Shown here: positions 3,045-20,245 of the stretch, one piece after another
Layout of the letters: the number at the start of each line of letters is the position of its first letter
How positions within the stretch are numbered: the first letter of the stretch is position 1
Notes under the pieces: model-generated
What the model was told of the DNA's origin: nothing
Database searches by the model: none
What the model saw: the letters and a program-made list of their open reading frames with translations, nothing else
Program-made: the position numbers and the translations under genes
Source of the DNA: Verrucomicrobiia bacterium
GTDB lineage: Bacteria; Verrucomicrobiota; Verrucomicrobiia; Limisphaerales; CAIMTB01
Direction of reading: 5' to 3'
Length of the DNA stretch: 64,000 nt
Assembly: GCA_019634625.1 (NCBI GenBank)
Contig: JAHCBA010000015.1
Coordinates: 1-64,000, forward strand

Positions 3045-3191
3045 GCCGTAGGCATGCAGCAGGGGCGGGCGCCATTCGCCATTCAACATTCGCCCGGGAT
3101 CGGTAGGATTACCTAGGCAACGGTTCGTAGCGGGTTCTACGCAAGCCATCCGATGGTTGGGGATGGGCGAGGGCGTCACGATTCGGGGGTC

Positions 3192-6100
3192 ATGGCCCGA
3201 TCGGGAAGTTCCAGAATCCTCGTGGTGGACGATCATCCGCCGACACGGCCGTACCGCCGGGTACGAGGGGCGCTGACACGGATGGCGCTGGCGGGTCTGC
3301 TGTTCGCGGCAGGTCTGTCGGCCCCGGGCGCACGGGCCCAGGAGGTGGCCGGGAACGCCCTGCGCTTCAACGGCACGACCGCGAGGGCGGAGACGCATGG
3401 GATTCCGATCGGGGACAATGGGAGTTTCACCGTCGAGGCCTGGGTGAGAACCCGCGTGGCGGCGCAACCGGGAACGGTCAGTCCGGCCGTCGCGAAGATG
3501 GCGAGGACGAGCTTCCATCATCCAACGGAGCCCGGGGAGTGGATGGTAGGACTGCGCCCGGACGGCGTGCCGATCTTCAATCTGCACGCCGCCAACGTGA
3601 CACTCGATGCCTACCCGCTGCGCATTCCCGAGGGGCACTGGGTGCACCTTGCGGCGGTGTACGACGCCTCGATTCCCGAGGCACGGCTCTTCGTGGACGG
3701 CGGGTACATGACGGTGTCCCCGAAGTTGAACGCCTTCGGGCAACCCTGGAGGGAGCTGGTCCGGTCCCAGGGCGGCAACGGCAGTCCGGTCACCCTCGGA
3801 TTCCTTCCGGGCAGTCATCTGGACGGGGATGTGGACGAGGTGCGGATCTGGAACGTGGCGCGGACGTCCTCGCAGATCAGCGGTGCCATGAATGCGCCGC
3901 TGACGGGGTCGGAACCGGGTTTGATCGCGTACTGGCGGATGGACGATGGGGCGGGGACGGTGGCGGCGGACAGTTCGGGCCATGGCCGGGTGGCCCACCT
4001 TCTGGGGGGTGCGACCTGGGCAGTCTCCGGGGCAGGGCTGTCCACGGAACCCGTGACGATGACCGTGCCGCCGCGGGGCGGTCGTCAGGCCAGGGCACGC
4101 GCGACGGTCAGAGTGGAGCCCACCACGAGTCTGCTGCCCACGGGTCGCATCGTGGAGGGCCACTTGAACGACGGAGGCAGCGGCTACGATCGCAAATACT
4201 ATTACGAGCCGCTGGACGTGGTGGCGCGAGGGCACGGCGGCCCCAGAAAGGTCGGCTCCTACTTCCCCGGGATTAGCGGGTGGGGATTGCTCGGCGTCTT
4301 CGACAGCACCGGGGGATTCACCGACGACACGACGCTGGTCATTCCTCCGCCGCACATGGGCGATCTGAACCCGGCCATCGACAATCCCCGCTGCAACGTG
4401 ATCCGGCTCGGGGTGGGGACCTACTACGACAATGTCATCGTCGATCGGGACCTGACGATCCGGGGCGAGGGCATGGGACGGACCTTCGTGTCGGGGGCGC
4501 TGTTGGGGACGGTGTTCACCGTGCTCCCGGGCAGGACGCTTCATCTGGAGGATCTGACCGTCATCGACGGACTGGCTCCGAGCGGCGGCGGGATCTACAA
4601 CCAGGGCACGGTGGTGCTGGACCGGGTCGAGGTGCGCGACTGCCGGGCGTTTGACTATTGGGGAGGCGAGGGCGGCGGCATCTACAATCGCGGTTCGGCC
4701 CGGCTCACGGTGCGGAACAGCGTCATCCGCAATAACTCGGCGGCACGGAACGGCGGCGGGATCAGCAGCAGCGGCTTGAATGTCTCCACCCTGCGGGTGG
4801 GCGGCGGGCGCAGCGCGTCGGACGAATTGACGGGGCATCGGTCGGACCTGGCGGAGATCACGCCGCCCTTGGATCCCACCCAGGAGGACCAGGCCGAAGC
4901 GGTCGAGGCCGAGTACGTCGCCAAATCCTCCACCCGCGCTGCGCAGGCCGGATCGGCGGAGGAGTTCATGGGCGGGCAACTGGGCAACAGCGACTCTGAA
5001 GGCGGCAATCCCCTCACCAACATTGCGGGCTGGCTTGGCCTGGGCTCACCGGTCACCGAGGTGATCGATTCGGTCATCGAGGGGAACAAGGCCGGGACCG
5101 GGGTCGCGGTTGCGCGGCACCTGATGAAGATCTGCTGGGTGGAACGAGGCCTCGTGCATTGTTTCCTCGCCGACCACATTCCGACCCCGCGCGCGCTGGT
5201 GGTCGGGGGTGGGATCCACACGGACCTGGGGCTGCTCAGGATCCGGAACTCGGAGCTGACGGGGAATGAAGCGGCGGGTCTGCTGGGCAGTCACGGCGGG
5301 GCCATCAGTTCGTTCTTCAGCGGGCTGGAGGTGACCGGCTCGAAAGTCAACGGGAACCGCGTTCGCGCCACGACGATCCTGGCGATGGGCGCGGCCATCC
5401 ACAGTTTCGGGTCCTACACTCGGGTGAGCGACTCGGAACTGAACGACAACGCGGCGGAGGCGCTGTTCCTGTCGAGTGGCGGCGCGATGAAGACGACCTT
5501 CGGCAGCTTTGTCCGCATCCAGGGCAGCGATCTCAACCGGAACACGTCCGGCGGTGGCGGCGCGATCGCGAACGACTACTACGCAGCCCTGCTGGTCCAG
5601 GACAGCACCCTGGCGGACAATCAGGTTTCCGGGGTCATTGCGGCGTATGGCGGCGGGCTGCGCAACGAGAACGGCGGCCAGGCCGTTCTGATCGGGAGCA
5701 CGATCAGCGGCAATGTCGCGAAGGGGAAGTCGAAGGGCGGGGGCGTGTTCAACGACTGCGCGGGGTCGGGCACGATCCTCATCAGCACCGTGACGCTGCA
5801 GAATTGCACGTTGAGCGGCAACCGGGTGGATGGGGAAGGCACGCGGGGCATTCCGTTGCCGGCCTTCGGAGCCGGGCTGTACAACGGCAGTTTCACGCAG
5901 GGCACCGCCATCGCCACGCTGGTGGACTGCACGATTTACGGGAACCAGGCCGTGAACGGTCTGACCCGTCAGGGCGGAGGGATCTATTCGACGGCGATGA
6001 GTTCATTGAAGGCCCAGCTCAAGCCGGAGGTGCTCGGGGTGTCGGTGGTCCACCTCTCGGGAACCCTGCTGGCCGGGAACAGCCCCAACGATGTCTTCAA

Positions 6101-9100
6101 CCGGACCCAGACCCTTCAGTCCCTCGTGGTTTCGACCGGGCACAACCTCGACACCGACGGAACGGGCGCCGAGGCCGCCTGGGCGAGCGAGTTGTTGCTT
6201 TCGGAAGGGGCGAGGTTCCGGACCGCGGACGATGCCGGGTTGGGTCCCCTGGAACATAACGGAGGTCGGACACACACCCATGCGTTGCGTCCGGACAGTC
6301 CGGCGCGGGACCAGGGGGCAACGGGCAGCCTGGTGGACCAGCGGGGCGTGCCTCGCGCGCTCGGGGGCGTCCCCGACATCGGGGCCTTCGAGAGCGTGGC
6401 GCCGTATGGCGCGCCCGAAGCCTACGAGGGGATGGAAGGCGTCCTGCTCGCGGTGGAAGGATCGCGCGGGGTGTTGGTGAACGACTTCGGCGACTCGCTC
6501 AAGGCCGCGTTTCAGTTGGGGAGCGGTCCGCAGAACGGCCAGCTCACCCTGTTTGAGGACGGGAGCTTCACCTACCAACCGAATCCCTTGTTCCACGGCG
6601 AGGATGGGTTCCTCTACCGGGTGCAGGATTTCGAGGGACGCATCTCCCCCGCCATCGCGGTCTCCCTCACCATCCGTCCGCGGCTCGACTGGCTGGCCCT
6701 CAGTCCGAACCCGGGCAGCGAGGCCGAGGAGTCGGCGCCGGTGGTGCTGACCTTCGATGAACCCGTGACGGCAGCCGCACTCGATGCCCACGTCGAAGTG
6801 CGCGGTTCGGTCAGCGGACGGAGACCGGTCTCGATCGCCCTGTCCCCTGACGGACGGGAGGCGACGTTGACCCCGGTCGGGCGGTTCATCCGGGGCGAGA
6901 CGGTGAACGTCACGGTGCGGGATACGATGACCAGTGCGGCGGGCTCGCCGTTCTTTCCCACCGAGACACGGACGTTCGGGATCCTTCCCAACCGCGCGCC
7001 CATTCCGGCGGCGCCGCGGACCTTTGTGATCGAGAGGAACACCGTGCTCGAACTGCCGCGTGCGCAATCGTTGCTGCAAGGCGCCTCGGATCCGGACGGG
7101 GACGACATCACGGTGCGCACCGATGAGTGGGTCCAGGGGCGGCTGTACGATCTGCTGACCCGGTTCCCGGGAGTGGCCCTGGAGGACATGCAGTACTTCG
7201 GCAACTGGCCGGATGGGAGCTGGGCGGTGCGGGTGCCGGTGCCCGCCGAGCGGGGCCAGTTGAACCTGCGTGCGGACGGCACGTTCACCTACACCCCGCC
7301 GCCGGTCTTCCGGGGGACCGACACGTTCCAATACGTGCTGACCGACGGCGACCTGGAATCGGCTGCGGTCACCATCACAATCCAGGTCGGGGGCGGCACG
7401 GAAGCGCCGGAACCGAGACCGGACCACTACCCGAATGTGCCCTTCCAATTCAACCACGGCGTCGATGCCCACTTCTCGCTGACCGTGGACGCCAGTGGCG
7501 GCGTTCTGGCCAACGATCGGAACCCGGACGGGCTCGATCTGGTGGCCGAGCTGGTGGAGGACGTCCAGAACGGGTTCCTCACCTTCCATCCCGATGGCGG
7601 GTTCACCTACCGGTCCTTCGGTTCCTGGAGTGAGGGGATCGATGCCTTCACGTACCGGGTTCGGGCGGACGAGATCGAGTATGTGTCCGGGCCGGTTCGC
7701 GTCGCCCTGGGCGCCGCGTCCCTGATCATGGCGGATGACTATTATGCGTACTCCGGTGCCGGGAACATCGATGTGCCCAGGGATGCGGGCGTGCTCGCCA
7801 ACGATTTCGATCCGAACCTCGGAGTGCCGGCCACCGAAACGGCGTGGGCGGAACTGGTGACCCCGCCGGGCCACGGCACGGTCGTCCTGGCGAACGACGG
7901 ATCGTTTGTCTATACGCCGGGGCCGGGCCATCCCGGGTCCGACGCCTTTGTCTATCGCGCCGGAACGGCGTACACCTCGGGGACCTACCCGCAGGCGAGG
8001 GTCAAGTTGGGGAACCGCGCCCCGGTGGCCGGGGACGACACGTACTTTCTCTTCCAGGGCCAGCCACGCACGGTGTCCGCAGGCGAGGGCCTGCTGGCGA
8101 ACGATGGCGATCCCGACGGCGACCCCGGGCTGGTGGTCGAGCTGCTGACCGCTCCTTCGCACGGCGCGTTGTCCCTCGCGGCGGACGGCTCGTTCGAGTA
8201 CGTCCCGGAACCGGGCTTCGACTCGGTCGATACGTTTACCTACCGGGTCTCCGACGGGCGCGATGCGTCGGGACCCGCGACGGTGACCCTGCGTGTGGTC
8301 GAACTGCTGGAGATCGTGTCCGTTGAACCGGCGGCCAACACGACGGATGCGCCGGCGTCCGGGCCGGTCCGGATCACCTTCAGCGGGGCGGTGGAGGCTT
8401 CGTCCGTTGCGGGGCGGGTCCATGCCTTCGGATCTCTGACCGGTCGCCGGGAAGTCACCGTGGGGGTGAACGGAGCGGAAGTGACCCTGGTTCCCGGGGA
8501 ACCCTTCCTTCCCGGGGAAGTCATCACCGTGCACGTCTCGCCCGGCATTCGCGAGGGCGTCCGGGCGGAACTGGCCCGACCCCACGCGTGGCAGTTCCAC
8601 GCCGCGGTTCCCCGGGGAAGTGCGGTGTTCCAGCGCGCGTTGGCGGGAACCTCGACGTCGGAGTTCAGCGAGTTTGTGACCCTGGTGGATTTGAACGGAA
8701 ACCGGGTCCCCGACGCGATCGTGTGGAATCGCGACACGCATCCGCGTGTGTACCTGAATCAAGGGGACGCCACCTTCATCGAGCGCGAAGAGTCGCTCGG
8801 ACTCCAGTACCCGGACCTTGCCTTCCGCGGGTCCGCACCGCTGGTGGCGGATCTGAACGGGGACGGACATCCGGACCTGGTCCTGATCTGGCAGGTGGAC
8901 AACTTCCTCGGCAGCCAGAGCAGGGAGATGCGGATCGGGTTCAACGATGGCACTGGCGCGTTTCCCGCCGGGAGCGTCGTCGTGCTCGGACTGTCGAGCT
9001 TCCCGCTGGGGGCGCCGTCATTCCTGCTGGCGGGCGACTTCGACGGTGACGGCGACCTCGATCTGCTGGGTGTCGGCTCCTCATGGGCCTGGGTCTGGCG

Positions 9101-12100
9101 GAACGACGGCCACGGAAACTTCACCTTCGATCCGGGTTCCGCGGTGGCCATCGCCTCGGCGTCGGCCGGTGCGGTCGGGGACCTGAACCACGACGGGTTG
9201 ATGGATGTGTACCTGGTCGGGCTCGCGGGCGGGCAGTTGCTGATCAACGAAGGCGGGGCGCGGTTCGACTTGCGTTCAAGCGGGGTGAGCACCACGTGGT
9301 CCCGCCAGGTGGTGCTGGCCGACCTGGACGGCAACGGCACCCTCGATGCCTGGCTCGTGCATCAGGTGAATTCCGGACCCAACGAGGTCTGGCTCAACGA
9401 CGGCGCCGCGAACTTCCACCGGTCTCCCTTCGGAATCGAACGGCGTTTCACCCTCGGGGTGGGGCTTGGCGACCTGAACGCGGACGGGCACCTCGATGTG
9501 TGGCAGGCGGATGTCCGCGACGGGGCGGGCCAGGGTGGCGGCGATGGCGTCCTGCTCAACAACGGGGCTGCCCGGTTCACGCAGTCCGGCGCGCGGTTGG
9601 GCACCTCCGAGAGCCTCCATGCGGGGGTGGCGGATCTCGACGGCGACGGCGATCTCGACGTGTTCGTGGTCAACAACAGCCGCACCACCGGCTCCGGCAA
9701 TGAGGTGTGGTTGAATCAGTCCGCCCCGGTGGCGCGTGACGATTTCCATCCGGCCAACGGATCCGCGCCGGTCGTCGTCGCCGCGGCCCAGGGGGTGCTG
9801 GTGAACGACCTCGCTGGCGACGGCGGTCCGATGCAGGCGCAACTCGTGAGCGCTCCCGCGCGGGGAAGTGTGGTGCTGGCCTCGAACGGCGGGTTCACCT
9901 ACACCCCGGGGACGGGGTTTGCCGGGACGGATGTGTTCACCTACCGCGCCGCCGATGCACAGGCATCGTCCGCGCCGGCCCGGGTGAAGATCGGCAACAC
10001 CCCTCCGGTGGCGGCGGGTGATGGACCCTACCTCGTGCCAGCCGGCGAGGCCTTTGCGGTCGTCGCGTCGCACGGGGTGCTCGCGAACGACATCGACGCA
10101 GAGGGCGATCCCCTGACTGCCGTGCTCGTGACACCACCGACCCACGGCACGGTTGTGCTGCGGCGCGACGGCTCGTTCGTGTACACGCCTTCGCCGGGGC
10201 ACCTGGGCGCGGATGCGTTCACCTATGCGGCCACGGATGGCCTTGAGAACTCGGCGCCAGCGACGGTCACGCTCGATGTCCGTTCCGTTCTGCGCGTGGT
10301 CGAGATGAGTCCTTCGCCCAATGATCCCTCGGCGCCGGGCAACGGAACCGTAGTGCTCCGATTCAATCGTCCGCTCGATTCCGCCACCGTCGGCGCCAAC
10401 GTCGCCGTGGCCGGCGGACAGAGCGGCCCGCGGAGTCTGCGGACCGTGTTGAACGGGACGATCCTGACGCTGCATCCCGATCCCGAGACCGGGTTCATTC
10501 CCGGCGAACAGGTCACGGTGTCGGTTCGTACGGGGCTGGGCGGGGCGCAGGGCGAGATCTTGCAGGCGCCGTTCCTGGCGCAGTTCATCGTCGAGGCCCC
10601 GACCGGGACCGGGTCGTTCACGGACAGCCTCCTGCGGTTGGGCAACGCCGAGTACAATTCCGTCGGCATCGCGATCGGGGATTTGAACGGGAACGGACAT
10701 CCCGACCTCTTCGTGCCGAACGCGCTGGGCTACTTTGGCCAGGCCGAGCCGTACGGCAGCCGGGTCTGGTTCAACGATGGCGCCGGCGGGTTCTCGGAAG
10801 GGCAGCAGAAGATCGGCTCCAAGATCCTCTCGAAGGCCCAGCTCGCCGACCTCAACGGCGACGGCCACCTGGATGCCCTCACCACCCATCGGATGGAGCC
10901 CTACGGCATGACCCTCTACTTCAACGACGGCAGTGGCGGGTTCACCGAAGGAACCCAGGCGCTGGAGAGTGTCCTGGTCGAGGCCTTCGCAGTGGGAGAC
11001 CTGAATGGCGACGGAGCAGTGGACCTGGTCACGCTCGCCTCCGCAGGCTTTTCGAACTGGTGGGTCCGCGTCTGGTTGAACGATGGAACCGGCCAGTTCA
11101 CCGAGTTCCCGGCCGCCATGGAAGACATCAGCTTCGCGAACCGGACCTTTCTCGAGGTGCGCCTGGCCGACCTCAATGGCAATGGCAGCCTCGACCTGGT
11201 GCTGGGCCAGTTCAGCGGCCCCACGCTGGTCTGGTTCAATGACGGTTCGGGCCGGTTCCGTGACAGCCTTCAACTGCTCGGCACAGGCGGCGCCTTCCCT
11301 CTCGTCGGGGACGTCAATGGCGACGGCGCTGTCGATATTGTCACCGTGCGTCGGAGCGGCACCGGACCCCTGGTCTGGTTGAACGATGGCTCCGGACAGT
11401 TCACGGCCACCGCACAGACCTTCGCCGGGACCACCATTCAGGGCGCCGTGCTGGGCGACTTCGACGGGAGCGCGGCGCTCGATCTGGTCGTCCTTCAGAG
11501 CGAGTTCGTCAGTGCCCTGTCCGAATCCTTCAATCGTTCCGTCCTGCTGGTGAACGACGGCCACGGGAACTTCACGGCTTCCGCCGCCATGCCCGGACCG
11601 GTGCATCCCATGGTGTCGATCGGGGCAGGGGACTTGAACGGCGATGGCGCAATGGACCTGGTGCTCAGCGGCGGTCTCGGCCGATCCAGCCATGTCTGGT
11701 ACAACGGGGTGGGGCTTCCCGCGCCCTCCGGAATCGCCAGCCTGACGATCACCGATCGCGAAACCGCCCTGCCGTTCGACAACGTCTCGTTGCGGTTGCC
11801 CGCGGCGACACTGGTGACCGTCCGCGTGGTCATGGAGGACGCGGCAAGGGGCGTACTCCTCGCTGCCGGGTTCTCCGGCTCCGACGTGGCCGGCTACGAA
11901 TTGACCGGTCCGGCTGGGACGGTCGAGGCGGCGTTGCGGGCGGTGCGTTTTATTCCCACCCGGCACCGGCGTCCCGTCGGGGAATCCGAGTCGACCGGGT
12001 TCACCCTGACGGTCGGCCTGGGCAGCCTGAACCGCGTCGCGGACGGCACCGTTGTGACGGTGGTGGCGGAGAACGACCCGCCGCTGGCCGCGGACGACGG

Positions 12101-14867
12101 TGGAGCGGGTTACAGCACCGTGGCCACGGCGGCCTTCACGACGCCCAGCGTTCTGGTGAACGACACGGATCCGAATCCGGGCGACACCATCAGCATCGTC
12201 CATGTGGTCACTGTGGGAACGATCGGGCAGGTGACGCACCAGGGGGGCGGGGTGTTCCACTACGATCCGAGCGGCCGGTTCCCCCTGCCGCCCGGGGTGA
12301 CGGTGACCGACTCGTTCCGCTACGTGGTCGAGGATTCGCACGGGGCGCGGGCCTCGGCACGGGTCACGATCCAGGTCCAAGGGGAGAATCATCCGCCTGC
12401 CGCGCCGGACCTCGTGGTTGTCGTGGCTGAGTTGAGCGGGGACAACCTGATCGACAACGCCATCCTGACCCAGGCGACCGATCCGGACCTGGGCGACCAG
12501 GTGCAGATCACCGCCATTGATCCGGCGGGTGTGCTGGGCCAGGTGTCCCTCGCCCCGGACGGGCGGCTTCGTTACAACCCGGCGGGCAGCGGTCCGAAAC
12601 TTGGACCCGGCGGCGAACGCCTCGATGGTTTCGGGTACACCGTCAGCGATCGCCAGGGCGCCACGGCGTCCGGGCGCGTGACCGTCCGCATCGAAGGACG
12701 CAACGACGCGCCGACGGCCGGGCCGGTGGCCATCACCGTGGCGGAGAACGAAGATCCAGTGGATATCGCCGCCCTGCTAATGGCGGCGGCCACGGATCCG
12801 GACCCGGGCCAGACCGCCCAGTTGCGTGTGGTGCGCGTGGATCGCTCGCTGACCCAGGGGCAGGCGGTGGTTGCCGGGACCGAAGTGTTCTACTCGACGG
12901 CACGGCGCTTCGAGAGCCTTCAGGAGGGCCAGACCGCCACGGACCTGTTCGACTACGAGGTCGAGGATCCGTTCGGCGCCATCGGAAGGGGCACCGTCAC
13001 GGTGACGGTCACCGGCGTCAATTCGACCCCCACAGCGGGTCCGGCGCATGCGGTGATGGATCTGCAACCGGTCGAGGCGGACCTGACCGCCCTCCTGCTG
13101 GCGAACGCCGAAGACCCGGACGACGACCCTGCCACCTTGCGGGTGGGGGAGATCGATACGGACGGAACGCTCGGTGAGGTGACCCTGTCGGGTGACACGG
13201 TGCGGTACACACCGCCGGCCGGATTGGTGATTCCGCGGGATGAGTTCCACACCGACCAGTTCCGCTTCAGCGTGCGCGACCCACGCGGTGCCGGGAGCGC
13301 GTTTGCGGTGGCCACGGTGCATCTGCGGGGCGTGCAGTCGCCGCCGACCATCGAGGTGGATCGGATGGATCAGGAGGTTCAGTACAGCGACGCGATCGCC
13401 CCGGTGAGCGTCTTCGCCAGCGACGCCGACACGGCGGGAACGGATCTCGTCGTGCGGATCGGGTGGAAGCGCGCGGACCACGCCGGAGCGTTCGAGCCCG
13501 GCGTTCCCGGGGGTTTCTCCTGGGGTCTCGCCCTGACCGAGGCGAACGCCGCGCACTGGACGTTGTCCGGGCGGGCGCAGGTTGCGCCGGGCGACTACCG
13601 GTTCCGGGTGGAGGTGGAAGACGCCACGGCGTCCACGGACGAAGCGGAGTTCGGAATCACGGTGTTGCCCGAGGACGCCCGCAGCGTCTTTGGTGGAACG
13701 CTCTTCCAGGGGACCGCGTCGCCGACCAGCGGAACGACCGTGCTGGCGCTGCGTGCCACCGTATGGGACCTGTCCACGTTGCCGGTGGGTGATCCTGAGC
13801 ATGACCCGTATCCCGCCGAGATACGGAATGCGACCGCCAGCTTCGTCGATCGCAACACCGGTTCGGTGATCGCTGCGAACCTTCCGGTGCAGGTCCCTGA
13901 CCCGACTGCCCCCACGGTGGGCGTGGTGTCCTTCGACTGGCCGGTGGACATCGGAACGGCCGATTCGAAGTCGTATGCGATCGGGGTGATCGTCGGAGGC
14001 TGGTTCGAGCGGGACAGCCGCGAGGACGACGTGCTGGTGACGGTCTCCAGGCCATCGGCAAGCGACATGGTGACCGGAGGCGGATTCCTGGTGCTGTCGG
14101 GTTCGCAGGGCATCGTTCCGGGCACGCCCGGGTCGAAGCTGGATTTCGGCTTCAATGCGAAGTTCATCCAGGGCGGCAAGACCCTGCAGGGTTCGGTGGA
14201 CCTCACGCTGCGGGACGGCGGGCGGGTTTATCAGATCAAGAGCAGCGCGGTGACGTCGCTCGCCGTCCAGGGCAACCGCAGTGTCTTCACGGCGAATGGG
14301 GTGATCTCCGACATCACCGGACCGGGCAAGGGGATCACCGTGGAAGACCAGGCAACCCTTCAAGTGCTGCTGACCGACCGTGGCGAGCCGGGTCGGGACG
14401 ACAGCCTGGCGGTGACGGTCTGGGATCGGAACGATGCCATGTGGTTCTCGAGCCATTGGAACGGACACCGGACCGTCGAGCAGACCATCGGGGGTGGCAA
14501 TCTGAAGATCCATTCGAAGGGTCCGGGTGCCCACGGGTGGGCTGGTGGTTCCACCGGGGAATCCGACGGACCTTCCATCGAAACGGCGGGCGATTCCGAC
14601 GCCGGTTCAATGCCGAACGAAGCGGGCGCGGCGGGAACTTACAGGATCGCCTTTCCGGCCGTGCCAGATCGGGACTACCTCGTCGAGGCGTCGTCGGACC
14701 TGACCACGTGGACTCCGGTGGCGCGGGTCCGGGGTCTCGGCCACCGGATCGAGGTGTTCGAGACGACCGACGCCCCCGTGCGCTTCTATCGGGCGCGCCA
14801 AACCGGGGACGAGGGTAGTGACGCCGAACCCGTGCGCTCCACGGGTTCGGGCGGGCACCTGGAGTGA
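3192..14867 (+). CDS. Giant secreted LamG / beta-helix / FG-GAP / Ig-like repeat protein
   Basis: About 3,891 residues. I chose the ATG at 3192; 3153 and 3282 are also in frame. A signal peptide ends near APGARAQE. Rough domain order: LamG/concanavalin-like domain (53-280, ending DVDEVRIWNVARTS and LIAYWRMDDG); right-handed beta-helix with repeated GGGIYN-type turns (390-960); a choice-of-anchor Q segment (976-1070, with DQRGVPRALGG and DIGAFES); then many Ig-like repeats of the 'VLANDxDPDGD...GTFTYTP...DTFTY' type. These alternate with three SbsA-type Ig domains (near nt 6690, 8310 and 10285) and two FG-GAP/VCBS propeller blocks (1809-2175 and 2474-2838) rich in DLNGDG calcium loops. The C-terminus (YLVEASSDLTTWTPVARV) is a domain common in Verrucomicrobiota secreted proteins. 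No LPxTG or PEP-CTERM anchor seen. Probably a cell-surface or extracellular adhesin or matrix protein; no catalytic site recognised. Confidence 0.9.
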   Translation: MARSGSSRILVVDDHPPTRPYRRVRGALTRMALAGLLFAAGLSAPGARAQEVAGNALRFNGTTARAETHGIPIGDNGSFTVEAWVRTRVAAQPGTVSPAVAKMARTSFHHPTEPGEWMVGLRPDGVPIFNLHAANVTLDAYPLRIPEGHWVHLAAVYDASIPEARLFVDGGYMTVSPKLNAFGQPWRELVRSQGGNGSPVTLGFLPGSHLDGDVDEVRIWNVARTSSQISGAMNAPLTGSEPGLIAYWRMDDGAGTVAADSSGHGRVAHLLGGATWAVSGAGLSTEPVTMTVPPRGGRQARARATVRVEPTTSLLPTGRIVEGHLNDGGSGYDRKYYYEPLDVVARGHGGPRKVGSYFPGISGWGLLGVFDSTGGFTDDTTLVIPPPHMGDLNPAIDNPRCNVIRLGVGTYYDNVIVDRDLTIRGEGMGRTFVSGALLGTVFTVLPGRTLHLEDLTVIDGLAPSGGGIYNQGTVVLDRVEVRDCRAFDYWGGEGGGIYNRGSARLTVRNSVIRNNSAARNGGGISSSGLNVSTLRVGGGRSASDELTGHRSDLAEITPPLDPTQEDQAEAVEAEYVAKSSTRAAQAGSAEEFMGGQLGNSDSEGGNPLTNIAGWLGLGSPVTEVIDSVIEGNKAGTGVAVARHLMKICWVERGLVHCFLADHIPTPRALVVGGGIHTDLGLLRIRNSELTGNEAAGLLGSHGGAISSFFSGLEVTGSKVNGNRVRATTILAMGAAIHSFGSYTRVSDSELNDNAAEALFLSSGGAMKTTFGSFVRIQGSDLNRNTSGGGGAIANDYYAALLVQDSTLADNQVSGVIAAYGGGLRNENGGQAVLIGSTISGNVAKGKSKGGGVFNDCAGSGTILISTVTLQNCTLSGNRVDGEGTRGIPLPAFGAGLYNGSFTQGTAIATLVDCTIYGNQAVNGLTRQGGGIYSTAMSSLKAQLKPEVLGVSVVHLSGTLLAGNSPNDVFNRTQTLQSLVVSTGHNLDTDGTGAEAAWASELLLSEGARFRTADDAGLGPLEHNGGRTHTHALRPDSPARDQGATGSLVDQRGVPRALGGVPDIGAFESVAPYGAPEAYEGMEGVLLAVEGSRGVLVNDFGDSLKAAFQLGSGPQNGQLTLFEDGSFTYQPNPLFHGEDGFLYRVQDFEGRISPAIAVSLTIRPRLDWLALSPNPGSEAEESAPVVLTFDEPVTAAALDAHVEVRGSVSGRRPVSIALSPDGREATLTPVGRFIRGETVNVTVRDTMTSAAGSPFFPTETRTFGILPNRAPIPAAPRTFVIERNTVLELPRAQSLLQGASDPDGDDITVRTDEWVQGRLYDLLTRFPGVALEDMQYFGNWPDGSWAVRVPVPAERGQLNLRADGTFTYTPPPVFRGTDTFQYVLTDGDLESAAVTITIQVGGGTEAPEPRPDHYPNVPFQFNHGVDAHFSLTVDASGGVLANDRNPDGLDLVAELVEDVQNGFLTFHPDGGFTYRSFGSWSEGIDAFTYRVRADEIEYVSGPVRVALGAASLIMADDYYAYSGAGNIDVPRDAGVLANDFDPNLGVPATETAWAELVTPPGHGTVVLANDGSFVYTPGPGHPGSDAFVYRAGTAYTSGTYPQARVKLGNRAPVAGDDTYFLFQGQPRTVSAGEGLLANDGDPDGDPGLVVELLTAPSHGALSLAADGSFEYVPEPGFDSVDTFTYRVSDGRDASGPATVTLRVVELLEIVSVEPAANTTDAPASGPVRITFSGAVEASSVAGRVHAFGSLTGRREVTVGVNGAEVTLVPGEPFLPGEVITVHVSPGIREGVRAELARPHAWQFHAAVPRGSAVFQRALAGTSTSEFSEFVTLVDLNGNRVPDAIVWNRDTHPRVYLNQGDATFIEREESLGLQYPDLAFRGSAPLVADLNGDGHPDLVLIWQVDNFLGSQSREMRIGFNDGTGAFPAGSVVVLGLSSFPLGAPSFLLAGDFDGDGDLDLLGVGSSWAWVWRNDGHGNFTFDPGSAVAIASASAGAVGDLNHDGLMDVYLVGLAGGQLLINEGGARFDLRSSGVSTTWSRQVVLADLDGNGTLDAWLVHQVNSGPNEVWLNDGAANFHRSPFGIERRFTLGVGLGDLNADGHLDVWQADVRDGAGQGGGDGVLLNNGAARFTQSGARLGTSESLHAGVADLDGDGDLDVFVVNNSRTTGSGNEVWLNQSAPVARDDFHPANGSAPVVVAAAQGVLVNDLAGDGGPMQAQLVSAPARGSVVLASNGGFTYTPGTGFAGTDVFTYRAADAQASSAPARVKIGNTPPVAAGDGPYLVPAGEAFAVVASHGVLANDIDAEGDPLTAVLVTPPTHGTVVLRRDGSFVYTPSPGHLGADAFTYAATDGLENSAPATVTLDVRSVLRVVEMSPSPNDPSAPGNGTVVLRFNRPLDSATVGANVAVAGGQSGPRSLRTVLNGTILTLHPDPETGFIPGEQVTVSVRTGLGGAQGEILQAPFLAQFIVEAPTGTGSFTDSLLRLGNAEYNSVGIAIGDLNGNGHPDLFVPNALGYFGQAEPYGSRVWFNDGAGGFSEGQQKIGSKILSKAQLADLNGDGHLDALTTHRMEPYGMTLYFNDGSGGFTEGTQALESVLVEAFAVGDLNGDGAVDLVTLASAGFSNWWVRVWLNDGTGQFTEFPAAMEDISFANRTFLEVRLADLNGNGSLDLVLGQFSGPTLVWFNDGSGRFRDSLQLLGTGGAFPLVGDVNGDGAVDIVTVRRSGTGPLVWLNDGSGQFTATAQTFAGTTIQGAVLGDFDGSAALDLVVLQSEFVSALSESFNRSVLLVNDGHGNFTASAAMPGPVHPMVSIGAGDLNGDGAMDLVLSGGLGRSSHVWYNGVGLPAPSGIASLTITDRETALPFDNVSLRLPAATLVTVRVVMEDAARGVLLAAGFSGSDVAGYELTGPAGTVEAALRAVRFIPTRHRRPVGESESTGFTLTVGLGSLNRVADGTVVTVVAENDPPLAADDGGAGYSTVATAAFTTPSVLVNDTDPNPGDTISIVHVVTVGTIGQVTHQGGGVFHYDPSGRFPLPPGVTVTDSFRYVVEDSHGARASARVTIQVQGENHPPAAPDLVVVVAELSGDNLIDNAILTQATDPDLGDQVQITAIDPAGVLGQVSLAPDGRLRYNPAGSGPKLGPGGERLDGFGYTVSDRQGATASGRVTVRIEGRNDAPTAGPVAITVAENEDPVDIAALLMAAATDPDPGQTAQLRVVRVDRSLTQGQAVVAGTEVFYSTARRFESLQEGQTATDLFDYEVEDPFGAIGRGTVTVTVTGVNSTPTAGPAHAVMDLQPVEADLTALLLANAEDPDDDPATLRVGEIDTDGTLGEVTLSGDTVRYTPPAGLVIPRDEFHTDQFRFSVRDPRGAGSAFAVATVHLRGVQSPPTIEVDRMDQEVQYSDAIAPVSVFASDADTAGTDLVVRIGWKRADHAGAFEPGVPGGFSWGLALTEANAAHWTLSGRAQVAPGDYRFRVEVEDATASTDEAEFGITVLPEDARSVFGGTLFQGTASPTSGTTVLALRATVWDLSTLPVGDPEHDPYPAEIRNATASFVDRNTGSVIAANLPVQVPDPTAPTVGVVSFDWPVDIGTADSKSYAIGVIVGGWFERDSREDDVLVTVSRPSASDMVTGGGFLVLSGSQGIVPGTPGSKLDFGFNAKFIQGGKTLQGSVDLTLRDGGRVYQIKSSAVTSLAVQGNRSVFTANGVISDITGPGKGITVEDQATLQVLLTDRGEPGRDDSLAVTVWDRNDAMWFSSHWNGHRTVEQTIGGGNLKIHSKGPGAHGWAGGSTGESDGPSIETAGDSDAGSMPNEAGAAGTYRIAFPAVPDRDYLVEASSDLTTWTPVARVRGLGHRIEVFETTDAPVRFYRARQTGDEGSDAEPVRSTGSGGHLE

Positions 14868-14894: not shown

Positions 14895-14929
14895 GCGAAA
14901 GGATTCGTGGCGGATGCTTCTGTAGTGGG
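14895..14929 (+). promoter_or_regulatory. Promoter-like motif, copy A (candidate ECF-sigma site)
   Basis: GCGAAA, GGATTC, eight bases containing GGCGG, then TGCTTCTGTA and GTGGG. The same elements with the same 8-base gap occur at 19446-19480 on the other strand, just before the kinase gene: about 29 of 35 positions match, in non-coding DNA. GGATTC and TCTGTA could be the -35 and -10 elements of an extracytoplasmic-function promoter. The motif lies 28 nt after the giant gene and 84 nt before the PxKF gene. The role is inferred; the repeat itself is directly visible. Confidence 0.5.
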
Positions 14930-15013
14930 TTGAACGCGGGCCATTCCCGTGCGGACCGTCGTCCGAGTGGATGCGGCAGAACGATAGAACGAAACAGCCC
15001 GACCCATAAGATC

Positions 15014-15847
15014 ATGAGAAAGTCACTACGCGCCCTCCTAGGTTCCATCCTCGCTGGCCTCCCGGCGTTCGCAGAGGACGGCCTGTTCATCCATGTGGAC
15101 CCGCTCACTCAAACCTACTTCCTCAGCGGCTCGGCCACGGGACAGCCGGCAAGGCAATCACCATTCCGAGTTTTCTGGGAAAACTTCCAGCCCCAGGCGG
15201 ATGAATTTGCGAGACTTCTATCGCCCGAGGCGTTTACGGTTTCCGGGAACATCATTGTCAGGGCATTTGATGGATTCATCCATGCTGGCGGCAATGTGAA
15301 TGGGGCCATCGCATTCGACTCAGACAGCCTGACGACATTGACCGGCAATAAGGCGGTTCAGTTCGATTACTCCGGCTGGTCGTCAGCCCTCATCGATGAG
15401 CTGGAGAATAAGGCACTGGATGGAGAGGTGGTGGGTATGCTGGAAGGCTCGCCTGAATTCGCTCTGACATTTCGTCTGTTGGAACCGGTCGAGCCGGAGC
15501 CGTTGTCATGGTCGGGCGTGCTTTCTCCGATCCGGGCCGATGGATCCTCGGTGTTCAAGGCCGGGCGCGTGGTCCCGGTCAAGTTCCAACTCACGGGAGG
15601 GGATGGTGGCATCGTGGACCTCGAGGCCCGGCTTTACTTCACCAGGCTCCAGGGTGCGGAGGCCGGTCCGATCAACGAAGCCAGGTCGCCCGGAGCCGCC
15701 AATTCGGGGAATCTGTTCCGATACGAGCCCGGGAGCGGCGAGTACATCTTCAACTGGAGCACCAAGGGACTGAGCGCCGGTACCTACCGTCTGGAGCTGG
15801 ATCTGGGCGACGGCGTGGTCCGCGAGGTCCTCGTCGGGATGCGGTGA
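15014..15847 (+). CDS. Exported PxKF-domain protein
   Basis: 277 residues from the ATG at 15014. Residues 1-19 are a signal peptide (MRKSLRALLGSILAGLPAFA, cleavage before EDG). The middle has no domain I recognise. The C-terminal third is a PxKF domain: VVPVKFQLTGGDGG, then GNLFRYEPGSGEYIFNW, then TKGLSAGTYRLELDLGDG, matching the usual 'PVKF...YIFNLSTKGL..GTY.L..DLGDG' pattern. PxKF domains sit at the ends of secreted proteins; their role is not known to me. It lies downstream of motif copy A and converges on the kinase gene with a 33-nt gap, so it may belong to the same sigma/kinase regulon. Confidence 0.75.
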   Translation: MRKSLRALLGSILAGLPAFAEDGLFIHVDPLTQTYFLSGSATGQPARQSPFRVFWENFQPQADEFARLLSPEAFTVSGNIIVRAFDGFIHAGGNVNGAIAFDSDSLTTLTGNKAVQFDYSGWSSALIDELENKALDGEVVGMLEGSPEFALTFRLLEPVEPEPLSWSGVLSPIRADGSSVFKAGRVVPVKFQLTGGDGGIVDLEARLYFTRLQGAEAGPINEARSPGAANSGNLFRYEPGSGEYIFNWSTKGLSAGTYRLELDLGDGVVREVLVGMR

Positions 15848-15880
15848 GGCAGGGCGGGATCACGAGATGGACGCGGCGGT

Positions 15881-18800
15881 TCACCGTTCACGAAACGGCT
15901 GCGGGTCGGGCTGCTGTCGATCGATGAGGAACCATCGGGCCCAACGGGAGTAGAAGTCGGTCTCGCGACGGGTTTCCAGCCCGGCAAGGAGGCTGTCCCA
16001 TTGCGAGGACGGAACGGGCTCGATCGTATCGTCGTCCAGAAGACGGGCGCCGGCCACGGTTTCGGCGAGTTCAGGGAACCAGGTGGGGGCGGGACGCCGG
16101 GGGAACAGGGGCTGCCAGAGGCGCACCCCGCGCCCGAGCGACGCGGTCAGGGCGTAACGGGCATGGGGCCCCAGTCGCGCTCGTCGGATCGGCGTACCGT
16201 GATCGAACCATCCGTTCAACGGCAGCCCGGATCGGGCATCCCAGACGCGCGCGTGGCCGGTGTCGTCGGCGGTGAACACGACGCGTCCGTCCTCGCTGAA
16301 CTGACCGAACCACACCGCGCTGGGGTGGCGCATGGGCTCTCCCATGGGGCGTCCGTCCGCCAGGTTCCAGAGCTGGGCGATCTGGTCGCCGCCGCCCGTG
16401 AGGATCACTTGCCCGTTGGGAGCGATCTGGGAGCAGTAAACCGCCTTCTGATGGCGGAACTCGGCCAGCAGGGTACCCGACTCGACGTCCCAGAGGCGGG
16501 CGCTGCGATCGTTGGAGGCGGTGAGCAGGCGCGTTCCGTCGTGGCTGAACTGGAGCATCCAAATGACGCCCTCATGGCGGCCAGTCTGGTGACGGCGGAC
16601 CGCGCGAAGCAGACGCGTGCCTTCGGCGCTGCGGGGAATTTCGGGCAAGTCCCAAAGCAGGACCTGACCGGAGACGGTCGCTGCCGCCAGGCGACGCCCG
16701 TCGGGACTGAACTCCGTGCCGACCACAGAACCCTCGTAGGCCAACGGATCGAGGACCGCGCGCCCGGTTTCGACATCGAACACCAGGACCTGGGGTGGCT
16801 CAGGGACGGTCGCCGCGTACCGGCGGCCGTCGGGAGCCAGGGCAAGATGACTGACATAGCTGGATAACGGGTGCATCCTGGACAGCAGGTCCCCCGTCTC
16901 CGGGTTCCACACCAGCACACCGGCAACCGAGGAACTGGCGAGAAGGCGGCCATCGTCCGAAATGACCAGGTCTCGAACCGGGTCTGGAATCGGCAGCACT
17001 CGGCGGATGTGCCCGTCCTCGGTGTAGAAGAGGGTCACGTTGTTCGACCTGCCCACCGCCAGCCAACGTCCATCGGGGCTGAAGCGCGCGTCGCCCAAGT
17101 GCGCATCGGTCGGCAGAAGGCGCGATGAAGGCGTCGCCATATTGAATTCCCAGAACTGCACGATCCGTTCCGAGGCGGCGGCGACCCACCGTCCGGAGGT
17201 GGACTCGACAACACTCGCGATGGCTCCGCGATATTCGACCGGTTCCAGAAGACGTTTCCCATCCTCCAAGCCGAAACAGGTCAGCAGACCCGAGCGCGCC
17301 CAGACAAAGGCCTTCGATGGATCGCGACTGACCAGCACGCCCGACGTTTCCGCAGGGGCTTGAGCGGAAACCTGGGGATGCTGCTGGACGATCGGCTCCG
17401 TGCCGCTCGACGCCGCGAGGTCGAGCGGCCACACACAGAGGAGACGCCCGCCGACACCGGCCAGGTGAGTGCTGACGATTGGTCCACCGTTTCCGGTGAA
17501 ATCCCCTCTGGCGTAGTACCAGTCTGAGACGGGCGAGACAGGTTGGGCACGCCAGACCAAACGGCTCGTCGCGGTGTCGTACACACGGAGTTCGAGATTC
17601 CGGGTGCGCAGCAGGAGTCGCCCGTCGGCATTCAGGCGGATGAAGGCAGGGTCCTCGCGATCCTCTGCGGCGCCTATCCAGAGCCTCTGCAAGGTGGCGG
17701 TATCCCAGACCTCTGCGGGTCCCTCCCGAGGGCTCAGGGCCAATCGACGTCGGTCTCGAGACAGATGCACGCTCTCCCAGTCCTGGCCGGGGACTTCGCG
17801 CAGAGGTTCGGCGCCGCCATGGGCTGGCCACAGGGAGACGCCGGAACGATCGACGACGAGAATCGGTCCATGACGGGTCACGAAACCGGCCAGGGGATGT
17901 TCAAAGGTCCTGGGCAGCGTGAACAGCTCCGTTCCCGAGGCGACCGACCAGCACCGGACGCGGCCCGCGACATCGGTCGTCAAGAGCTGGGAGTCGTCCG
18001 GCGAGAGATGGATCTCCAGAACCGCAGCGTCGTTCGTGATCGGCGACCCTCGAGGGATCGGGAAGGCGTGATCGCTGAGAAGCGACAGGAGACGGGTGCT
18101 CAACTCGAGACTCTCCGGGTGCTGACGCAGGGCTCGGGCGAACCACATCAACGCCCCGGCGGTCTTGTTCTGCGCCACCAGGGCCTCGGCGCCCTGCCAT
18201 TCGCGGAGGAACAGGTTGCGCGATAGCCGCGCATTCGCCTCTTCCGCGGCCTCTCGCGCCCTGACCACATGAAGCGTGAAGACCGCGCCTCCCACGCCCA
18301 AGGCCAGCAGGGCCGTGACCGCGGTGGCGATCAGGGCTGCCCAGGCCGGCCTGCGGCGAATCCATTTGCGGATCCGTTCGGGGGTTGAAGCCTTCCGCGC
18401 CAGGATGGGTTCGTGGCGCAACCAGCGCTGGAGATCTTCCGCCAACGCCGCCGCCGATTCGTAACGCGAGCCCGGTTCCTTCTCGAGACACTTCAGACAG
18501 ATCGTATCGAGATCTCTCACGTCGGAGCGGGCCGTGTCCCATGTCCGGGAACGCTCGCCATGCGCCAGTCGGCTGGGCGGCGTCGGCTCGGTATCCTCCA
18601 CCTGTCGGAGAATGTCGGCCGGCGACGCACCCATGAAGGGAGGGCGCCCGGCGAGCAGTTGAAACAGGATGGCCCCCAATCCGTAAACGTCGGCCGCGGT
18701 GGTGACCCGCCGCGAATTCCCCCGCGCCTGCTCGGGCGCCATGTAGGCCGGTGTTCCCATGACCGCCAGGGTGCGCGTCAGCGTGCTTTCCTTCTCCAGC

Positions 18801-19438
18801 AGGCGGGCCAGGCCGAAATCGGTGAGGAAAAGCGCGCCGGCATGGTCCACCAGGACGTTATTGGGTTTCAGATCGCGGTGGAGGACCCCTCGCTCGTGGG
18901 CGTAGTGGACGGCGCGGGCGAGGGTGACAACAGCCGCCGCACAGGCTCGGCGATGGGCTTCATCCGGTTCGCGAGAATGCCAGGAGGCGAGCGTGCCGCC
19001 CTCCACCAGCTTCATACTGAAGTAGGACTTGCCTTCCGCTTCACCGACTTCGTAAACGGGAACGATACTCGGGTGATCGAGCGCGGCTGCCGCTTCCGCC
19101 TCGGTCCGGAATCGCTGCTTGAAGTCGGCCGATGCGAACTCGCCCCCGGCCAGGACCTTCAAGGCGACCCAACGGTTGAGCCGGGCGTGGCGCGCGCGGT
19201 AGATCACGGCCATTCCGCCGCGCCCGATCTCCTCGTAAACCTCGTAGTCGCCAAGGCGCCGGGGGCCTGCGTCGGATCCCGCCCCGGGGGATTCCGCGGC
19301 ACTTGTCCGGGTCAGGACCTGGCGCAACGCGCAACGCGCACAGAATGCGGCGCTCGACCGGGCCCCGAGCGGGACGCCGCAGCTCTGGCAGGCACGCCCG
19401 GAGTCCGTCCCGGTAATTCGTGAATCTCCGGATTTCAT
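15881..19438 (-). CDS. Membrane Ser/Thr protein kinase with N-terminal zinc ribbon and WD40 repeats
   Basis: 1,185 residues. Cys17, Cys20, Cys33 and Cys36 form a short zinc ribbon (CQSC and CARC). The PknB-type kinase domain spans about 63-345 with all key elements: glycine loop IGRGGMAVIY (71-80), VALK lysine 94, HRDLKPNN (Asp189), DFG (207-209) and APE (234-236). A single membrane helix lies at about 363-391 after a basic stretch. The remainder is WD40/propeller repeats with 'ARLWDVESG'-like ends. Orientation suggests a cytoplasmic kinase and a periplasmic propeller sensor. It follows the ECF sigma gene with a 57-nt gap that contains promoter-like motif copy B. ECF sigma factor/kinase pairs of this kind are frequent in Verrucomicrobiota and Planctomycetota, where the kinase is thought to control the sigma factor. 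Confidence 0.93.
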   Translation of the reverse strand: MKSGDSRITGTDSGRACQSCGVPLGARSSAAFCARCALRQVLTRTSAAESPGAGSDAGPRRLGDYEVYEEIGRGGMAVIYRARHARLNRWVALKVLAGGEFASADFKQRFRTEAEAAAALDHPSIVPVYEVGEAEGKSYFSMKLVEGGTLASWHSREPDEAHRRACAAAVVTLARAVHYAHERGVLHRDLKPNNVLVDHAGALFLTDFGLARLLEKESTLTRTLAVMGTPAYMAPEQARGNSRRVTTAADVYGLGAILFQLLAGRPPFMGASPADILRQVEDTEPTPPSRLAHGERSRTWDTARSDVRDLDTICLKCLEKEPGSRYESAAALAEDLQRWLRHEPILARKASTPERIRKWIRRRPAWAALIATAVTALLALGVGGAVFTLHVVRAREAAEEANARLSRNLFLREWQGAEALVAQNKTAGALMWFARALRQHPESLELSTRLLSLLSDHAFPIPRGSPITNDAAVLEIHLSPDDSQLLTTDVAGRVRCWSVASGTELFTLPRTFEHPLAGFVTRHGPILVVDRSGVSLWPAHGGAEPLREVPGQDWESVHLSRDRRRLALSPREGPAEVWDTATLQRLWIGAAEDREDPAFIRLNADGRLLLRTRNLELRVYDTATSRLVWRAQPVSPVSDWYYARGDFTGNGGPIVSTHLAGVGGRLLCVWPLDLAASSGTEPIVQQHPQVSAQAPAETSGVLVSRDPSKAFVWARSGLLTCFGLEDGKRLLEPVEYRGAIASVVESTSGRWVAAASERIVQFWEFNMATPSSRLLPTDAHLGDARFSPDGRWLAVGRSNNVTLFYTEDGHIRRVLPIPDPVRDLVISDDGRLLASSSVAGVLVWNPETGDLLSRMHPLSSYVSHLALAPDGRRYAATVPEPPQVLVFDVETGRAVLDPLAYEGSVVGTEFSPDGRRLAAATVSGQVLLWDLPEIPRSAEGTRLLRAVRRHQTGRHEGVIWMLQFSHDGTRLLTASNDRSARLWDVESGTLLAEFRHQKAVYCSQIAPNGQVILTGGGDQIAQLWNLADGRPMGEPMRHPSAVWFGQFSEDGRVVFTADDTGHARVWDARSGLPLNGWFDHGTPIRRARLGPHARYALTASLGRGVRLWQPLFPRRPAPTWFPELAETVAGARLLDDDTIEPVPSSQWDSLLAGLETRRETDFYSRWARWFLIDRQQPDPQPFRER

Positions 19439-19445
19439 GTTCGTC

Positions 19446-19480
19446 CCCGTTACAGAAGCACCCGCCCGGAATCCCTTCGC
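19446..19480 (-). promoter_or_regulatory. Promoter-like motif, copy B (upstream of kinase gene)
   Basis: On the minus strand: GCGAAG, GGATTC, eight bases (CGGGCGGG), TGCTTCTGTA, then ACGGG. It matches copy A at 14895-14929 with identical spacing. It ends 7 nt before the kinase ATG, so if it is a promoter the transcript leader is very short; GGGGA between it and the ATG could act as the ribosome binding site. Alternatives are an operator or an RNA element. Confidence 0.5.
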
Positions 19481-19495: not shown

Positions 19496-20245
19496 TCATT
19501 GGCTCAACGCCTCGATCAGGTCGCGCAGCTCGGATTCCGCGTCGCGAGCGTCATCGAGAGTCTGGGCCGCTTCCCGCAGCAGATGTTCGCGAAAGCGCAG
19601 GCGCATCCGATGGATTGCCGAGGTCACAGCGCTCTCGCTCAACCCGAGACGCGTGGCGGCCTCGGCGTAGGTCACTCCCGATGGATCTCCGAGCACGAAG
19701 TCGCGCAGGACCTCGAATCGGAATCCCTGGCTCGCGGCCTCACAGTCCGCCTTCAATCGATCCAGGGCCACCTCGATCAAGGTCTCGGCCCAACGGCGGT
19801 CGAAGGCCTTGTCCGGTGACGACTCATCCACCGGTTCCAACTGATACCACCGTTCCGCGGCCAACCCGTCGATCGACAAGACCTCCACGCGCCCGCCTCG
19901 CTTCAGGCGTTTGGCACGGTCCAGCTCGTTCATCAGGAAGTGGCGCGCGGACGCCAGCAGGAAGTTGCGGAAACGTCCCTTTGCCGGATGAACCCGGGCC
20001 AGATCGTTTCGCTTCAAGAGCGCCGCGAAGAAGGTCTGGGTAAGGTCCTCGGAGTCCTCGGCGGACTGCCGGTCACGCCGGAAGAACGCGTAAACCGGAT
20101 ACCAGTAGATCTGGCACAAGTGCAACAGCGCCTGCTCGGCTCCGGGCGACGTGCCGTCCCGCCCAGCAAGGAGCACCACACTCCAATGGGTCGTCGCGAA
20201 CATCGGATTGGCATCCGAGCCTGCGGCGTGAATGTCGAAGGCCAT
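19496..20245 (-). CDS. ECF-family RNA polymerase sigma factor
   Basis: 249 residues; a second start at 20203 gives MFATTHWSVVLLA, the common N-terminus of this Verrucomicrobiota sigma group. Region 2 is visible as YWYPVYAFFRR...AEDLTQTFFAALL-like text (SEDLTQTFFAALLKR, then RNFLLASARHFLMNELDRA). Region 4 shows a helix-turn-helix, TYAEAATRLGLSESAVTSAIHRMRLRFREHL. There is no C-terminal extension domain. It is the first gene of a pair with the WD40 kinase, and the protein would redirect RNA polymerase to its own promoter class; motif copies A and B are candidates. No anti-sigma gene is adjacent, so the kinase is the likely regulator. Confidence 0.92.
   Translation of the reverse strand: MAFDIHAAGSDANPMFATTHWSVVLLAGRDGTSPGAEQALLHLCQIYWYPVYAFFRRDRQSAEDSEDLTQTFFAALLKRNDLARVHPAKGRFRNFLLASARHFLMNELDRAKRLKRGGRVEVLSIDGLAAERWYQLEPVDESSPDKAFDRRWAETLIEVALDRLKADCEAASQGFRFEVLRDFVLGDPSGVTYAEAATRLGLSESAVTSAIHRMRLRFREHLLREAAQTLDDARDAESELRDLIEALSQ

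Follow-up and report, generated by a model that had tools for sequence, protein, structure and literature searches.

The window, as we call the whole 64-kb stretch of DNA analyzed here, contains two closely matching 35-base sites that are, at a probability of roughly 0.88, cognate promoters of the ECF sigma factor encoded at 19496-20245, each composed of a -35 element GAARGG, a 19-bp spacer, and a -10 GTA. An earlier note on this DNA had placed one site before the kinase gene that follows the ECF sigma gene and the other before the gene for a PxKF protein, and these positions hold (Table 1). The motif and its position are common to both sites, the architecture recurs in related loci, and the motif varies together with the recognition helix of the sigma factors. 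From these patterns, we infer that the sigma factor binds, and that transcription starts, at both sites, with a predicted start for site 1 near 14930.

Table 1. Genes, matching sites, and predicted promoter elements in the window
Feature	Coordinates	Strand	Basis or remark
Site 1	14895-14929	+	Non-coding; sequence GCGAAAGGATTCGTGGCGGATGCTTCTGTAGTGGG
Site 1, -35 element GAAAGG	14897..14902	+	Alignment with GAAAGG/GAAAC at junctions of related sigmas L170, L089, and L172; helix covariation
Site 1, spacer, 19 bp	14903..14921	+	Conserved GGCGGaTGCTTCT adjoining the -10
Site 1, -10 core GTA	14922..14924	+	
Exported protein with C-terminal PxKF ("rightmost") domain, predicted target	15014..15847	+	NF038114, E 5e-20; N-terminal hydrophobic segment
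Partner Ser/Thr kinase	15881..19438	-	Pfam PF00069, E 2e-48; WD40; membrane segment
Site 2	19480-19446	-	Non-coding; sequence GCGAAGGGATTCCGGGCGGGTGCTTCTGTAACGGG
Site 2, -10 core GTA	19451..19453	-	12 bp 5' of kinase ATG
Site 2, spacer, 19 bp	19454..19472	-	
Site 2, -35 element GAAGGG	19473..19478	-	
ECF sigma factor (249 aa), proposed to read both sites	19496..20245	-	PF07638, TIGR02937; region 4.2 helix SAVTSAIHRMR

The sigma factor scores above both curated cutoffs (26.4 bits for PF07638, cutoff 21.1; 49.8 for TIGR02937, cutoff 42.9), and no close ortholog (>53% identity) was found. By gene coordinates, its gene adjoins that of the kinase, which combines a Zn-ribbon-like Cys N terminus, a Pkinase domain, one membrane helix (~364-392), and a WD40 propeller. 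Site 2 falls in the interval from the sigma stop (19496) to the kinase ATG (19438), and the 12 bp between its GTA and that ATG make a short leader. Site 1 lies 28 bp 3' of the stop of a 3904-aa gene and ~85 bp 5' of the ATG of the PxKF gene (15014), which is the only such gene found among the five genus genomes searched. The 3904-aa gene (window 3153-14867) has tandem-95, VCBS, choice-of-anchor Q, and post-COAP-1 matches, and no copy of the motif was found in front of it. Nor was a copy found upstream of the window sigma gene, either in the 20-kb region or in the genome. Thus, the earlier proposal that the sigma factor activates its own operon is supported for the kinase part and is limited to it.

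The two sites, on opposite strands, are identical at 29 of 35 positions in a gap-free alignment; the earlier count of about 29 of 35 is borne out by this alignment, and both sites are non-coding. The 8-base gap described between the two shared blocks is itself partly conserved, with GGCGG common to both sites. The pattern GGATTC-N8-TGCTTCTGTA has exactly two matches in the 64-kb window, where 0.21 chance matches with up to three mismatches are expected, and exactly two in the 6.74-Mb genome, where a further 27 matches with two or three mismatches are near the 19 given by a reversed-pattern control. A sequence model of both sites recovered no third copy in the genome (own sites, E 3e-10; next match, E 0.12). 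The genome-wide enrichment that had been suggested as a check therefore yielded only the two sites and chance matches. The motif differs from paralog to paralog, which is why an exact-string search has no further matches and why enrichment has to be tested for each paralog.

Since two copies cannot prove a regulon, we examined the same position in paralogs, using the 24 kinase-linked sigma genes of this genome and the 10 to 34 in each of four genomes of the same genus. GTAAC is present in 16 of 48 junctions between a sigma stop and a kinase start (1.9 in shuffles), and in 11 of the 48 a GTA comes 17 or 20 bases after it (~0.01 in shuffles). In an enlarged set, GTAAC-N17/20-GTA occurs at 16 of 57 sigma-to-kinase junctions, or 3.5 per kb; upstream DNA elsewhere has 0.14 per kb, and coding DNA has no match. 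Spacings of 18, 19, 21, and 22 together account for one junction in this set. No recognizable motif is present at half or more of the junctions. Genome-wide, a strict 12-base family pattern gives 11 matches against 13 for its reversed control, so the argument rests on context and not on counts. When junctions were searched by free two-block EM with kinase coding sequence included, the search converged on a codon-like signal and was dropped. At a locus in a Gemmataceae MAG (L133, Planctomycetota), GTAACCTTC lies directly 3' of the sigma stop, which suggests that this -35 type may extend to another phylum.

Typical ECF promoters carry AAC at -35 and CGT at -10 (PMC8103513), and the family consensus GTAAC-N17-GTA matches this form (-35 AAC, -10 CGT/GTA, ~17 bp). 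Outside the genus, the closest sigma relatives that were found (L170 and L172, 52 to 53% identity) have the junction motifs GAAAGG-N19-GTAA and GAAAC-N20-GTAA, and it is by alignment with these that the window sites are parsed as GAARGG-N19-GTA. Relative to a typical ECF promoter, the window sites lack AAC at -35 and have 3 bp of additional spacing; a 20-bp spacing is unusual against the rigid spacer near 17 that ECF promoters require (PMC6411747). When a matrix was built from other loci only, the window sites ranked 1 and 2 among 39,938 positions (20 kb); under the same leave-out scoring, the L089 sites ranked 1 and 2, that of L170 ranked 1, and those of L172 ranked 1 and 3. The motif is most likely a -35/-10 promoter, GAARGG-N19-GTA, for the adjacent kinase-linked ECF sigma factor. 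The regulon reading of the earlier note thus stands, given that the motif type recurs at sigma-to-kinase junctions, appears locus-specifically before exported genes, and covaries with the sigma helix. Its parse, GGATTC-N8-TGCTTCTGTA, is replaced, and GGATTC is not the -35 box.

To evaluate recurrence within loci, we matched each junction sequence against non-coding DNA from its own 20-kb region and from ~80 other regions. The own region was outright best for 12 of 105 junctions, in a set where a few sigma genes are listed twice, compared with ~1.3 expected; z scores were 8.1 for the window and 10.7 for L089. By inspection, there are ~11 cognate pairs (the window, L089, L091, L123, L131, L137, L141, L142, L153, L155, and L172); L091 and L137 were not outright winners, yet they show the family motif at the junction and at the second site alike. 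Immediately downstream of the second copy is a gene on the same strand, in most cases one for an exported protein, and each locus has its own version of the motif. L089, in this genome, is a near-repeat of the window, with 29 of 35 positions identical and the second copy before an exported protein; it also has tandem GGCGAAT repeats immediately before its sigma gene. Only at L131 was the second copy seen directly upstream of the sigma gene, a placement that by analogy is that of self-regulated ECF genes. Top-ranked recurrences at L166, L144, L159, L095, and L147 were judged to be dispersed or unrelated repeats and were excluded.

The form of the -35 element follows both the sigma phylogeny and the recognition helix. 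Four of the five sigmas with GAA-type sites fall in one clade (SH-aLRT, 97), and -35 type requires two changes on the sigma tree, compared with 4.8 when labels are shuffled. In the region 4.2 recognition helix, Ser is present in all five GAA-type sigmas ([T/K]S) and in none of the 28 GTA-type sigmas, most of which have [K/R]V at that place. Because the sigma sequences are related, the match between helix and -35 can stand for no more than one or two independent events, although contact with the -35 element would be expected to give such a match. Another ten sigmas also have Ser at the same helix place and no assigned motif, so the helix rule does not yet predict all sites. Spacer class (17 or 20) follows the tree more weakly (4 changes versus 6.4 shuffled; 11 of 500 shuffles as low). 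The length of the sigma region linker was considered as a cause of the two spacings and set aside, being ~73 residues in both classes.

Away from the junctions, 13 upstream regions carry GTAAC-N17/20-GTA in loci chosen around sigma genes. By a crude rule, an N-terminal hydrophobic segment is present in 10 of these 13 genes, compared with 174 of 609 others (p 5e-4), an enrichment that, given how the loci were picked, is silent on targets elsewhere in the genomes. Among the 13 are PpiC-type isomerases, as well as several exported proteins that have no family. At L123, L095, and L162 (own and genus genomes), an exported family with GWNAIWLEVEP..DP..VFAGIPVDIVA follows GTAAC-N17-GTA. At L123, L137, L178, and L182 in genus genomes, near-identical GTAACCTTC-N8-TTCCGGTAAG sites precede exported genes of PpiC-type isomerase-like proteins; at L182, the nearest long ORF upstream has the opposite orientation. 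A match at L096 (G000:C2, near 306.7 kb) contains repeated GTTTCAATCCGCGCCTCTGACCGGAGCCAGAGGCGAC and looks like a CRISPR array.

A separate DNA-binding protein, whether activator or repressor, might instead act at both sites to control the kinase and PxKF genes. We consider this unlikely: identity does run through the spacer (GGATTC, GGCGG), beyond what a bare -35/-10 promoter needs, but the motif varies by locus in step with sigma phylogeny and recognition helix, its two blocks, fixed spacings, and GTA have the layout of an ECF promoter, and the sigma factor is the sole shared DNA-binding candidate in the modules inspected.

That the sites belong to a dispersed repeat, or were copied together with neighboring DNA in a short duplication, is a very improbable reading. 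Similarity between them ends at the motif edges, and the same layout recurs with different sequence at other loci, whose sites predict the window pair; these observations outweigh the presence of just two copies in this genome and the real dispersed repeats at some other sigma loci (L166 and L144). Least probable of all is a riboswitch-like or protein-binding RNA leader in both transcripts. Although both sites precede a start codon on the right strand, their folding is not unusual (z, -0.18 and -0.36), there is no Rfam match, site 2 ends ~8 bp from the kinase ATG, and the two sites have no fold in common. The earlier judgment that an RNA element or a dispersed repeat would be less likely therefore agrees with our results, since both fit poorly.

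Under the promoter interpretation, the sigma factor would guide RNA polymerase at site 2 to the beginning of the gene for its membrane kinase partner and at site 1 to the gene for the exported PxKF protein. This would constitute a small private circuit in which the kinase senses a signal, the sigma factor is switched on, and more kinase and secreted product are made. With a promoter between the sigma and kinase genes, the circuit would feed back on the kinase. Control of the sigma factor by the kinase is presumed, and it could be either activating or restraining.

It is well known that ECF sigmas can read promoters at the loci that encode them, and groups linked to kinases have been described (PMC3817407, PMC8999054). 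The window resembles self-regulated ECF promoters (PMC3817407) in its two-block -35/-10 form, its local ECF sigma, and its combination of a regulator locus with few targets. In those systems the site precedes the sigma gene, whereas here it falls between sigma and kinase. Further differences are that paralogs within a single genome each have a private version, that the spacer is 17 or 20, and that no anti-sigma gene is seen between sigma and kinase. As in the kinase-linked groups, which comprise ECF43 (EcfP/PknT, EcfK/PknS), ECF59, ECF61, ECF62, and ECF217 (PMC8999054), the ECF sigma gene adjoins that of a Hanks-type Ser/Thr kinase. However, the window sigma retains, as DSED, the acidic DAED-like motif that ECF43 has lost, with no uncharged replacement bearing a phosphorylatable Thr or Ser, and relatives have DAED, DAQD, or EAED at this place. 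With DSED retained, the ECF43 mechanism, in which phosphorylation replaces the lost DAED, does not fit as such. The kinase resembles membrane kinases of Planctomycetota in having a Pkinase domain, one membrane helix, and a C-terminal WD40 propeller predicted to lie outside (PMC11032199); that work on kinases with WD40 or TPR repeats did not concern a linked sigma promoter.

In the literature searched, which excluded the main ECF classification, we found no published promoter code for this sigma group. What looks new is a private motif for each paralog with matching helix changes and the 17/20 spacing despite the rigid-spacer rule (PMC6411747); the promoter between sigma and kinase is another feature of this variant of the known ECF regulon. 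We give about even odds to the broader proposal that one genome carries ~20 parallel circuits of sigma factor, sensor kinase, and secreted protein, insulated by promoter codes that coevolve with the recognition helix and use two discrete spacings (17 and 20). These genomes contain greatly expanded sets of kinase-linked ECF sigma factors, the majority without known targets. A promoter code that can be read, together with its matched helix changes, would make their regulons predictable from sequence, and it points to secreted proteins as the output. The family may also serve as a naturally occurring collection of sigma/promoter pairs insulated from one another, and as a test case for why a 20-bp spacing is tolerated.
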